From Streptomyces sp. R28 (GTDB lineage Bacteria > Actinomycetota > Actinomycetes > Streptomycetales > Streptomycetaceae): a DNA stretch of 64,000 bases. Positions 45,530 to 49,480 of this stretch are shown here, piece after piece. Below the pieces are notes generated by a model. That model saw only the letters and a program-made list of their open reading frames with translations. It was not told the DNA's origin and made no database searches. Position numbers and translations under genes: made by a program. Within the stretch, counting starts at the first letter, position 1, and every line of letters starts with the position of its first letter. The stretch spans positions 1,849,001 to 1,913,000 of the forward strand of contig NZ_CP163439.1 in NCBI RefSeq assembly GCF_041052385.1, given 5' to 3'.

Positions 45530-45663
45530 GACCCAAGACTGCCATGCCGGAGCACGAATGTTCGCGCCGGTACAGAGCTGAGACGTTCATCGGATGGTGT
45601 GTCCGATTCGCGCATGCCATGCCGGCCCGCCGACCGGCTCCACATACGGCTGCGGGGGTGGCC

Positions 45664-47868
45664 ATGACGAGGACCCGGGAGAACCAGGAGAACCGGGAGA
45701 ACGGGGAGAACCGGCGGACGCCGTCGGGACAGCGGGGCATCGCGCATCTGGTCTGCGGGCGACGCGCCAAGTGGGTGGTGCTCGTCCTGTGGCTGGCGGT
45801 GCTGTTCCTGACGGCCCCGTTCGCCCAGAAGCTGACCGACGCGCAGGACAACGACGCGGCCTCCTGGCTGCCGGGGTCGGCGGAATCCACCCAAGTCCTG
45901 GAAATCTCCGAGAACTTCAGGCCGGAGCAGATCCCCGCGGTCGTCGTCTACGCCCGTGACGGCGGCCTGACGGCACAGGACCGGGCGGCGATCACCGCGG
46001 ACGTGGCCGGGCTCAAGCAGCTCACCGACCACGGCATACGGGGCGCCGAGACCCGGGGGCCGGTCTTCGACCGCGAGGTGGACCCGCGCGCGGCCCAGGT
46101 CCAGGTCCCGATCACCATGGACGAGAAGGGCTGGGAGCGCATCGCGCCCGCCGTCGACTCCATCCGGGACATCGTCGGCGAGGGCGGCGGCGGGCTGGCC
46201 GTGCACATCACGGGCCCGGGCGGCACGTCCGCGGACTTCGCGGAGGCCTTCGAGGGCATCGACTCCACGCTGCTGCTCTCGGCCATGACGGTGGTCATCG
46301 TCATGCTCCTGCTGACCTACCGCAGCCCGACCCTGATCCTGGTCCCCCTCATCGCCGTGGTCGTCGCCCTGTTCACCGCACAGGCCTTCATCTATCTCCT
46401 GGCGGAACACGGGGGCCTGACGGTCAACGGCCAGAGCGCGGGCATCCTCACGGTGCTGGTCTTCGGGGCAGGCACGGACTACGCCCTCCTGCTCGTCGCC
46501 CGCTACCGGGAGGAACTGCGCCGTCACGAGGACCGCCACGAGGCGATGGCGCTGGCCCTGCACCGCGCGGGCCCGGCGGTGCTCGCCTCCGGCGCGACCG
46601 TCGTCCTGAGCATGCTGGTGCTGCTGGCGGCCGAGATGAACTCGACGAGAGGCCTCGGCCCGGTAGCCGCGATCGGCGTGGCAGTGGGCCTCCTGGCCAT
46701 GGTGACCCTGTTCCCCGCCCTCCTCGTCATCTGCGGCCGCTGGATCTTCTGGCCGGTGATCCCGCACCTGGGTACGGAGAACCCGGACAGGCGAGGCGTC
46801 TGGGCCCGCATGGGCCGCCGTATCGCCCACCGCCCGCGCATGGTCTGGGCCGTCACGGCCATCGCCCTGGCGATCTGCTCCCTGGGCCTGATCCAACTGC
46901 GCGCCGAGGGGCTGAGCAACGCCGACGCGTTCACCGAGAAACCGGACTCGATCACCGGCCAGGAGGTCTCCGCGCAGTACTTCCCGGCCGGCAGCGGCGA
47001 CCCGCTGGTCATCGTCAGCAACCAGGCACAGGCCGTGCAGGTGGGCCGCGCGGTGGCCGGGACACAGGGCGTCGTCCCCGACTCGCTGGGCCTCCCCCCG
47101 GGCACGAAACCGTCGTACGACGGCAAGGTGCTCTTCGAGGCGACGATGACGGACCCCGCCGACAGCGAGGCCGCGAAACAGACCGTCGAACGAGTCCGCG
47201 ACGCCGTCCACGAGGTACCGGACGCGGACGCTCAGGTGGGCGGCGGTACGGCAGCCCTGCTGGACATGGACAAAGCGACAACCCACGACAACATACTGAT
47301 CATCCCGCTGGTCCTGGTCGTGGTCCTGCTGATCCTCTGCGCCCTGCTCCGCGCCCTGATCGCCCCGCTCCTGCTGATCGGCACGGTGATCCTGTCGTTC
47401 GCCGCCGCGCTGGGCATCAGCGCCCTGGCCTTCCGCCACCTCTTCGACTACGCGGGCGAGTCGACCGACTTCCCGCTGTTCGTCTTCGTCTTCCTGGTGG
47501 CGCTGGGCATCGACTACAACATCTTCCTCACGACCCGCATCCGCGAGGAGGCAACCCACCAGGGCACCCGCCCCGGCGTCGTCACCGGCCTCGCCGCCAC
47601 CGGCGCCGTCATCACGTCGGCCGGCCTGGTCCTGGCCGGCACCTTCGCCGCCCTGGGCACCCTCCCCATGGTCGCCTTCGCCGAAATCGGCTTCGCCGTG
47701 GCGCTGGGCGTCCTCCTGGACACCTTCATCGTGCGCTCGGTCCTGGTGACGTCCCTGTTCCTGGACATGGGCCCGAAGGTGTGGTGGCCACACCGGCTGG
47801 CCCGGGAGGACGGGGGCGCGGCGGCGGTTCCGGAGGCGGAGGAGGGGATCGCGGAGCGGGGTGGCTGA
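45664..47868 (+). CDS. MMPL-family (RND-like) exporter
   Basis: A 734-residue protein with about 12 helices in two halves: helix 1 at ~34-53 (WVVLVLWLAVLFLTAPFAQ), a large extracytoplasmic loop, five helices, a second loop and the final five. The functional motif FGAGTDYALLLVARYREELRRH contains the proton-relay Asp-Tyr pair, repeated as LGIDYNIFLTTRIREE. MMPL proteins export lipids, siderophores or antibiotics. The N-terminus contains a short repeat (ENQENRENGENR; imperfect 9-bp units at about 45676-45716). A longer frame from 45544 is rejected. Substrate unknown. Confidence 0.92.
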   Translation: MTRTRENQENRENGENRRTPSGQRGIAHLVCGRRAKWVVLVLWLAVLFLTAPFAQKLTDAQDNDAASWLPGSAESTQVLEISENFRPEQIPAVVVYARDGGLTAQDRAAITADVAGLKQLTDHGIRGAETRGPVFDREVDPRAAQVQVPITMDEKGWERIAPAVDSIRDIVGEGGGGLAVHITGPGGTSADFAEAFEGIDSTLLLSAMTVVIVMLLLTYRSPTLILVPLIAVVVALFTAQAFIYLLAEHGGLTVNGQSAGILTVLVFGAGTDYALLLVARYREELRRHEDRHEAMALALHRAGPAVLASGATVVLSMLVLLAAEMNSTRGLGPVAAIGVAVGLLAMVTLFPALLVICGRWIFWPVIPHLGTENPDRRGVWARMGRRIAHRPRMVWAVTAIALAICSLGLIQLRAEGLSNADAFTEKPDSITGQEVSAQYFPAGSGDPLVIVSNQAQAVQVGRAVAGTQGVVPDSLGLPPGTKPSYDGKVLFEATMTDPADSEAAKQTVERVRDAVHEVPDADAQVGGGTAALLDMDKATTHDNILIIPLVLVVVLLILCALLRALIAPLLLIGTVILSFAAALGISALAFRHLFDYAGESTDFPLFVFVFLVALGIDYNIFLTTRIREEATHQGTRPGVVTGLAATGAVITSAGLVLAGTFAALGTLPMVAFAEIGFAVALGVLLDTFIVRSVLVTSLFLDMGPKVWWPHRLAREDGGAAAVPEAEEGIAERGG

Positions 47869-47931: not shown

Positions 47932-47997
47932 TTGCCGTACTGGAAACTTGCCACTTTCCATACTGGAAACTAACCGCTACTCTTTCCGTTATGGAAA
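47932..47997 (+). promoter_or_regulatory. triple operator and leaderless promoter
   Basis: Three TT[TG]CC-N5-GGAAA palindromes occur: TTGCC-GTACT-GGAAA (47932-47946), TTTCC-ATACT-GGAAA (47955-47969) and TTTCC-GTTAT-GGAAA (47983-47997). A promoter with -35 TTTCCA (47955-47960), a 17-base spacer and -10 TACTCT (47978-47983) would start transcription at the A of ATG 47991, giving a leaderless mRNA. The regulator encoded by the second gene is the probable ligand. Confidence 0.7.
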
Positions 47998-48482
47998 CTA
48001 ACGGGGTACGACTGACGCCGGAGCAGGCCCGTTCCGCACTGGCCGACACCGAGCACGTCCGGGCCTCCGCCGCAGCACTGTCGGCCACACCATGGCCGAA
48101 CTGGTTCTTCATCACGCTTACGCTCTACGCTGCCGCGCTCCCGATCACCTACGGAGGCGTCATGGCCGACTCGGACTGGCTACTGCCGCGCCCCGCCTGG
48201 ATGGGCATCATGCTGGCGATCACCGCGGTGTACGGGGCGCTCTTCGCCGTCGCGGCCAAGGCTTGGCGCAACAAGACCGGGGTGGCACTGCGGTTGGACG
48301 TGCTGCCGAAGCGGGCGACCGTGCCGCTCGCGGTCGGCCTGCCCGTGCTGCTGGTGGGGACGGCGTTCGCATTCCGCGTCACCGGATGGCCGGCGTGGCT
48401 GATCGCGGCCTCGCTGATCAATGCCGCCGCGTCCGTCGGCTTCCACCTCGCCTTCGTCCGCCTGCACCGGAAGACCGCGTGA
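47991..48482 (+). CDS. small membrane protein paired with a regulator
   Basis: A 163-residue protein (METNGVRLTPEQARSALADTE...) with a ~45-residue helical cytosolic N-terminus. About four transmembrane helices follow, at ~42-58, 71-92, 117-135 and 138-157 (WMGIMLAITAVYGALFAVAA; VPLAVGLPVLLVGTAFAF). The ATG lies at the predicted transcription start and has no ribosome-binding site, consistent with leaderless translation. The next gene, an HTH regulator, overlaps it by 4 bases (GTGA), so the two form a unit. I recall such DUF-type membrane protein/regulator pairs in Streptomyces but no function. Confidence 0.8.
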   Translation: METNGVRLTPEQARSALADTEHVRASAAALSATPWPNWFFITLTLYAAALPITYGGVMADSDWLLPRPAWMGIMLAITAVYGALFAVAAKAWRNKTGVALRLDVLPKRATVPLAVGLPVLLVGTAFAFRVTGWPAWLIAASLINAAASVGFHLAFVRLHRKTA

Positions 48483-48799
48483 GCGCCGAGAACCACGACC
48501 CTCTGGAGGGTTTCGACACCACCATCCACGCCCCGAACCGGCTGCGCATCTGCGCCCTCCTGGACACCGCGGGCGAGGCGGAGTTCGGCCTGGTCCAAAA
48601 GCAACTCGCCCTCTCCGCCTCCGTACTGAGCAAGCACGTCACCGTACTGATGGACGCCGACTACGTCGGGCAGCGCAAGGCCGTCCGCGACACCCGGCAG
48701 CGCGTATGGCTCCACCTGACCCGGCGAGGCCGGGATGCCTACCGGGGGCACCTTGCGGCGCTGCGGGCGATCGTGGGGCCGTCGGATCCGGCTGTCTGA
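48479..48799 (+). CDS. winged-helix (MarR/ArsR-like) regulator
   Basis: A 106-residue single-domain winged-helix protein starting at GTG 48479: HAPNRLRICALLDTAGEAEFGLVQKQLALSASVLSKHVTVLMDADYVGQRKAVRDTRQRVWLHLTRRGRDAY. It is the MarR-like/PadR-like short form, with recognition helix SASVLSKHVTVLMDA and wing GQRKAVRDTRQRVW. It is translationally coupled to the membrane protein, and the three palindromes upstream of the pair fit autoregulation by a dimer. Confidence 0.9.
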   Translation: MSAENHDPLEGFDTTIHAPNRLRICALLDTAGEAEFGLVQKQLALSASVLSKHVTVLMDADYVGQRKAVRDTRQRVWLHLTRRGRDAYRGHLAALRAIVGPSDPAV

Positions 48800-48805
48800 T
48801 CACGA

Positions 48806-49480
48806 TCGGACCCATCGGAACCAGATGAGGAGCGCGGCAGCGGTGACCTTGCCGAGGTGGACGTATCCGCGTTCGTTCATAGCGGATAGCCACGGTGCTG
48901 AACTGCTTCAGCTTTCCGATGGCCCGCTCCACCGCGTGGCGATCTTTGTACCGCTCTTCGTCGAAGCCCGGAGGCCGTCCGCCGCGTGAACCCCGGCGCA
49001 TACGGGCGGCCTTGTGGTCTCTACGTCTCCGGAATCACGTGCCGGATGCCACGCTTGCGGAGGTACGCGAGGATCTTGAGGTTGCTGTACGCCCTGTCGA
49101 CGCCGACGCTGTCCGGCGTGCGCCGGGGACGTCCGAGTCCGGTGCGGGGAACTCGGATCTTGTCCATGACCGGCTCGAACTGGCTGCACCCGCCCCGCTG
49201 ACCTGGGGTGATGAGCAGGGCCAGGGGGCGGCAGTGGCCTTCCGCGGCCACATGGATCTTGGTGGTCAGTCCGCCGCGGGACCGGCGGGAGGGCTTCGCC
49301 GGCTGCACCACCCTCTCCAGCAGGCCGCGCCGAATACCACCGCCGACAGGTGCTGAACCGATCTTCGTGGGGCCTCTTTTGAGGAGCCCGGCGGTGCGGG
49401 CGGCGGGCCCTTCGGTGCGCCCGCGGCGTGATGGCGAGCACGTCCGACGGTGGAGTCGACGTTGATGGCCTCTCAAGGGC
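48806..49480 (-). pseudogene. decayed IS5-family transposase
   Basis: Minus-strand fragments of one DDE transposase are spread over several frames: INVDSTV near 49450-49475, SRRSRGGLTTKIHVAAEGHC...VGVDRAYSNLKILAYLRKRG (about 49030-49300), then, after a frameshift near 49020, RRGSRGGRPPGFDEERYKDRHAVERAIGKLKQF, and after a second near 48875, NERGYVHLGKVTAAALLIWFRW before a TGA. The catalytic region is present but cannot be read as one protein. The 5' end is missing where the dispersed repeat begins. No terminal inverted repeats were found. Confidence 0.85.

Follow-up and report, generated by a model that had tools for sequence, protein, structure and literature searches.

Gene pair, predicted promoter and palindrome copies

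The window (the whole stretch of 64,000 nucleotides of Streptomyces sp. R28 DNA that was analysed) holds two overlapping genes on the forward strand, of which the first (47991-48482) encodes a membrane protein of 163 amino acids, modelled with an N-terminal helix and four long helices, and the second (48479-48799) an HTH_34 winged-helix regulator of 106 amino acids, whose GTG start overlaps the membrane gene's stop codon. Three palindromes related to TTTCC-N5-GGAAA lie on the same strand at the beginning of this pair: copy 1 at 47932-47946 (TTGCCGTACTGGAAA), copy 2 at 47955-47969 (TTTCCATACTGGAAA) and copy 3 at 47983-47997 (TTTCCGTTATGGAAA). The original prediction described them as three palindromes of the same form within 66 bases, which is exact for copies 2 and 3, while copy 1, 23 bp 5' of copy 2, reads TTGCC-N5-GGAAA and is a near copy with one mismatch. 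When one mismatch is allowed, the 64-kb window contains these three matches and no other, compared to 0.32 expected, and none of 100 shuffles gave three. In the genome of 10.76 Mb, TTTCCNTANTGGAAA with at most one mismatch is confined to the same three places, and the exact TTTCC-N5-GGAAA core is found at six places, two of them in the window operator, compared to about 1.6 expected from base composition (71% G+C) and one place for the reversed control pattern.

A candidate promoter is interwoven with the palindromes. The predicted -35 hexamer TTTCCA (47955-47960, forward strand), read from the sequence, occupies the left arm of copy 2 as originally proposed, and is followed after a 17-bp spacer by the predicted -10 hexamer TACTCT (47978-47983, same strand), likewise read from the sequence. 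Many orthologs carry a TTGACA- or TTGCCA-like hexamer at the former position, and a TANNNT-like box is seen in orthologs at the latter. A strict sigma-70 consensus scan of the window returned no promoters, consistent with TTTCCA and TACTCT being a weak pair. The ATG (47991-47993) falls inside copy 3, and no ribosome-binding site is seen by eye upstream of it, both as originally noted.

Directly upstream of the pair, on the same strand, lies a gene for a 774-amino-acid MMPL-family transporter (45544-47868), and on the 3' side the minus-strand frames between 48639 and 49614 resemble decayed pieces of a transposase; the frame at 49021-49614 matches DDE_Tnp_1 (27.8 bits, cut-off 23), and those at 48639-49001 and 48908-49441 gave no match in the domain scan.

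Conservation of the predicted operator and the start codon

Ortholog loci were collected by searching genome contigs with the window's regulator alone, the best 80 of 95 being kept, and a site was counted when it had at most one mismatch and lay upstream of the regulator at a distance of no more than 800 bp. Such a site is present in 74 of the 80 loci, which represent two metagenome-assembled genomes, one labelled Phycisphaeraceae (a label that may be a binning error), and 16 named actinobacterial genera: Streptomyces, Jiangella, Actinomadura, Streptosporangium, Actinorhabdospora, Bailinhaonella, Planobispora, Frigoribacterium, Actinopolymorpha, Amycolatopsis, Microbacterium, Nocardiopsis, Microtetraspora, Nocardia, Thermobifida and Thermomonospora. 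All three copies, with two mismatches allowed in copies 1 and 2, are retained in 65 of the 74, at a near-fixed spacing: copies 1 and 2 are 23 bp apart in every one of the 65, and the step from copy 2 to copy 3 is 28 bp in 54, 29 bp in nine and 27 bp in two. Conservation in orthologous loci had been put forward as a check on the three sites, and it speaks for them. Copies 1 and 2 were found by the same rule at 10 of 16,000 random anchors in these loci; on this count, together with the shuffles and the genome scan, chance was rejected as the source of the three copies. The nine loci in which three copies were not shown include the single Amycolatopsis and the single Microbacterium locus.

Six of the 80 loci (L048, L049, L052, L054, L084 and L087) have no operator site. 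By eye, the membrane gene is broken, truncated or replaced in the first four, L084 is cut by a contig end, and L087, with an intact-looking continuation, is a real exception. In L048, L049, L052 and L054 the regulator has been retained, and what is missing or replaced is the operator together with the 5' end of the membrane gene; L052 runs off its contig. Furthermore, L052 and L054 are extra copies, since the same assemblies hold operator-bearing pairs (L041 and L047, respectively). Within the genus, close relatives of the regulator (at least 70% identity) are patchily distributed, occurring in 17 of 246 genomes, the source genome included.

A search for further recurring genes compared open frames of at least 110 codons across 23 selected loci. 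Apart from the pair itself, no frame had direct matches in more than one other locus, although MFS-like frames connect L089, L091 and L095 at differing distances, and no MMPL-family gene recurs near the pair in these 23. The lack of a third gene common to many of the loci fits a two-gene unit.

In the 74 site-bearing loci, the frame leading to the regulator has its start position within the last site; this position reads ATG in 67, GTG in four and, in the three remaining loci, ACG (two) or ATT (one). The frame from this start runs for at least 120 codons in 72 loci, L079 and L098 having short frames only. At positions -13 to -8 relative to the start, 54 of the 74 loci have a full TANNNT and 20 keep two of its three fixed bases, and loose Shine-Dalgarno-like 4-mers at -20 to -5 are found in six. 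In 30 of the 74 loci no alternative in-frame start exists upstream before a stop; in other loci, one upstream in-frame "start", at -36, is the TTG of the -35. The longer frame from GTG 47781 (233 codons) in the window was rejected on these two grounds. The fixed position of the -10, the scarcity of Shine-Dalgarno-like words and the 30 loci confined to the start within the site thus favor the leaderless reading of the original prediction, and from the -10 position the operon mRNA is likely to be leaderless.

The left arm of copy 2, at the -35 position, reads TTTCC in 26 loci, TTGCC in 26, TTGAC in 19 and otherwise in three, and the GGAAA columns are conserved at 87-99% in the ortholog loci. Where the -35 is consensus-like, the left arm of the palindrome gives way and the right arm is kept. 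That the left arm yields to the -35, the right arm remaining constant, is the pattern expected of a shared -35/operator element. The layout also bears on the direction of control. A protein bound at the -35 or at the transcription start normally blocks polymerase, and copy 2 lies on the predicted -35 and copy 3 on the predicted transcription start and the start codon, an arrangement that argues for repression. An activating role of the regulator would agree with the two copies upstream of or at the -35 and with a -35 that is non-consensus in many loci (the 26 TTTCC and 26 TTGCC of 74), but loci with a TTGAC -35 show the same layout, and we regard activation as unlikely. Repression of its own operon by the regulator is, on these grounds, what we infer to be the likely outcome of binding.

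Under the start codon, constraint on the DNA can be told apart from constraint on the protein. Codon 2 is GAA in 70 and GCA in two of 72 loci, although GAG is preferred for Glu elsewhere in the same genes (GAA in 65 of 287), and Thr at codon 3 is encoded by ACT in 30 of 64 cases, compared to 30 of 770 elsewhere. The count covers 72 of the 74 loci, L079 and L098 being dropped for their short frames; these loci were chosen for having the site, a choice by which only six of 80 were lost, and many are close relatives, so that the events counted are not independent of one another. The excess of GAA and ACT at codons 2 and 3 indicates that copy 3 is held as DNA and not only as protein. One could still suppose that copy 3 arose by chance or from a constraint on the N-terminus of the protein, Met-Glu-Thr being the common start of these proteins, as compared in 70 of the 74 locus proteins (those of 140-180 amino acids) together with that of the window. 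Such an origin is hardly credible, as it is contradicted both by the codon choice at codons 2 and 3 and by copies 1 and 2, which lie outside the coding sequence and keep a near-fixed spacing.

The HTH_34 regulators and the distribution of their predicted operator

The regulator matches HTH_34 (PF13601) with 55.5 bits, compared to a curated cut-off of 27, over profile positions 2-80 of 80. Its structure model is a confident winged helix (mean pLDDT 90.7) with little beyond, and the nearest fold is that of PH1061 from Pyrococcus (1ub9; TM-score 0.78, 29% identity), a solved example of HTH_34. The cut-offs of the SdpR-family model NF033789 (17.8 vs 100 bits) and of the ArsR/SmtB model NF033788 (31.3 vs 55 bits) were both missed. 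Orthologous regulators are 66-91% identical to that of the window (34 chosen rows), and in an alignment of 40 regulators chosen for diversity, inspected for a metal-binding Cys/His set of the ArsR/SmtB kind, H17 and H91 are invariant and Cys25 is conserved in at least 90%. A link to defence was considered and set aside: PADLOC matched the regulator weakly to Csa3 (21.6 bits), which we attribute to the broad resemblance among winged-helix proteins, and gave no match for the membrane protein.

A search for the regulator within the genus gave 138 matches, 17 of them close and 121 divergent. Of the divergent ones, 73 were analysed, comprising 72 of the best 81 and one from the window's genome; nine were skipped and 39 weaker ones omitted. 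These regulators share 38-55% identity with that of the window, and the motif lies within 900 bp upstream in 51 of the 73 loci, in 39 of them exactly, each of six control patterns being found at one of the 73 at most. The 22 divergent loci without the motif within 900 bp include the other strong HTH_34 gene of the source genome (L116). Five motif-less loci (L117, L118, L124, L126 and L135, in genomes G191, G090, G175 and G167) may use another operator; G191 holds six HTH_34 matches at E 1e-10 or better. The start codon lies within the last site in the divergent loci L023, L024 and L028, and in L032, L139 and L142 it lies downstream of the motif, behind a sequence that by eye resembles a ribosome-binding site. 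The fusion of operator and start codon therefore belongs to a part of the family.

The association was also examined in reverse, by searching the exact longer pattern ACTTTCC-N5-GGAAAGT in 37 chosen Streptomyces genomes, mostly near-complete and amounting to 328 Mb. It occurs at 20 places in 15 loci of 14 genomes, compared to 0.09-0.18 expected by base composition (69-73% G+C) and none for the reversed control, and each of the 20 sites is followed by an HTH_34 gene at a distance of 482-734 bp. A strong HTH_34 match is present in 31 of the 37 genomes, of which 17 are without the exact longer site, and in the six genomes without such a match no longer site was found. Twelve of the 15 loci overlap the set of 73, three being new (in G124, in G128 and one in G158). 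The window sites differ from the longer pattern by one to two bases and the exact pattern is present in only four of the 80 ortholog loci; it is mostly the form of the divergent branches, so that the reverse test speaks mainly for these.

One may ask whether the sites instead serve another global regulator or a sigma factor, as GGAAAC is an ECF-type -35. In the window, GGAAAC followed by 17 bases and GTT (47965-47990) is loosely similar to ECF-type promoters, and the genome has four further exact core sites, none of them within 700 kb of a PF13601 match. These four are, however, few against the expectation of about 1.6, every exact longer site in the 37 genomes adjoins an HTH_34 gene, and the six genomes without a strong HTH_34 match have no longer site, which makes such a factor very improbable. 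Comparison of the loci shows that operator, regulator and gene pair belong together, and the motif tracks the HTH_34 gene across genera. Autoregulation by the adjacent winged-helix protein, as originally proposed, has in this respect strong comparative support. The neighbouring HTH_34 protein very likely binds the predicted operator, and the HTH_34 proteins of the divergent loci may equally be dedicated autoregulators. Judged from these comparisons, the window locus belongs to a large family of such pairs and is not an isolated case. As the layout is kept in these soil actinobacteria and the palindrome accompanies much of the regulator family, it is probably the means by which the pair controls itself.

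The membrane protein and the proposed mode of control

The model of the membrane protein (mean pLDDT 85.8) has an N-terminal helix at residues 10-31 and long helices at 37-58, 67-96, 107-131 and 135-160. No Pfam family was matched by the window protein (E at most 0.1) or by 47 aligned members chosen for diversity (E at most 0.01), and no structural relative of the model was found in the PDB at E of at most 0.001, the best being 0.36. Membership in SdpI, for which Pfam presumably contains a model, was rejected, no SdpI model being among the Pfam matches of the window protein or of the 47 members at these thresholds. The membrane proteins are 18-91% identical to that of the window (46 chosen rows) and are far more divergent than the orthologous regulators. 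Beyond Met1, only A13 and L17 are invariant, both in the N-terminal helix, and P36, W38, P66 and G97 are nearly so. The N-terminal helix may lie on the cytoplasmic side and contact the regulator, and there is about an even chance that the membrane protein is a sensor acting on it.

In the mechanism that we propose, a dimer of the regulator would bind the TTTCC-N5-GGAAA palindromes, which usually have a C or G at either flank, and the three copies would bring it to positions 5' of the promoter, on the -35, and across the transcription start together with the start codon. With copies 2 and 3 occupied, RNA polymerase would be excluded from the -35/start region and the operon kept low. More tentatively, the membrane protein would be the partner relieving this repression, by holding or changing the regulator via its conserved N-terminal helix on a signal met at the membrane, in the manner of SdpI with SdpR. 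On the sequence evidence as a whole, the locus is probably a dedicated autoregulatory leaderless operon, in which the membrane gene and the HTH_34 regulator are under autorepression through the TTTCC-N5-GGAAA copies.

A different division of roles is quite possible, at somewhat below an even chance: the regulator would be an ordinary ligand- or redox-sensing repressor of the MarR/ArsR-like kind, and the membrane protein its regulated output (e.g. in immunity or transport) and not a sensor. An output gene under a ligand-sensing repressor is the usual design for MarR/ArsR-like regulators, and the high conservation of Cys25 in the aligned regulators would agree with a regulator that senses by itself. 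Cys25 is, however, absent from rows L027, L031 and L032, whose loci bear the operator, and the regulators of about 106 amino acids model with little besides the winged helix. The range of identities, wide in the membrane proteins and narrow in the regulators, suits an output as well as a receptor for varying signals. The position of the invariant A13 and L17 in the N-terminal helix speaks against a mere output, although the four nearly invariant residues lie outside that helix.

The reading of the membrane protein as a receptor has a counterpart in SdpR/SdpI of Bacillus subtilis, in which a signal leads SdpI to retain SdpR at the membrane (PMC1626106). Like the window pair as read here, it is a two-gene operon that combines an autorepressor with a polytopic membrane protein, but in the window the gene order is reversed, the membrane protein matches no SdpI model, and the regulator belongs to HTH_34 and not to NF033789. 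TrpP of Corynebacterium glutamicum (SdpI/YhfL family; PMC11995493) is likewise a small actinobacterial membrane protein for which action on a regulator is suspected; it differs in having an SdpI-family sequence, to which the window protein has no match, and no partner regulator was known to its authors. SCO7424 and PMC3878966, also looked at in this connection, concern other proteins. The literature matches listed, which include few subscription papers, hold no description of this system, and a whole-word full-text search for HTH_34 or PF13601 by name, which versioned forms may escape and which likewise covers few subscription papers, returned no paper, so that no described operator was found for comparison.

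With the predicted operator, which can be tested, the HTH_34 proteins acquire a likely function in local autoregulation, and the loci point to a membrane partner outside the Pfam families. If the membrane protein is a receptor, these genomes would contain uncharacterised membrane sensors encoded in single operons. We tentatively envisage a widespread actinobacterial family of membrane receptors and repressors with their own operators, one branch of which would have merged the operator and the start codon of a leaderless mRNA, and in which a membrane part evolving fast along with the signal is combined with a fixed regulator, operator and N-terminal docking helix.

If the reading of the start region is true, the same bases serve as repressor site, transcription start and Met-Glu-Thr codons, and the fusion of operator and start codon would provide a clean natural case for control of a leaderless gene by a DNA-bound repressor. 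CrtR of C. glutamicum, an actinobacterial regulator of the MarR family, is comparable in that its own transcript is reported to be leaderless; it differs in its divergent gene layout, its TTAA-containing motif and its isoprenoid pyrophosphate signal, and the available part of the article mentions no operator at the start codon (PMC5401885). A palindrome of GGAAA and TTTCC overlapping the transcription start is recognised by CsnR, a repressor of the ROK family in Streptomyces lividans (PMC3048496), the one article containing both operator words among the Streptomyces regulation papers listed; the words are in the reversed order and without a spacer (GGAAAC-TTTCC), a single palindrome is found at the chitosanase genes, and the regulator belongs to a different family.
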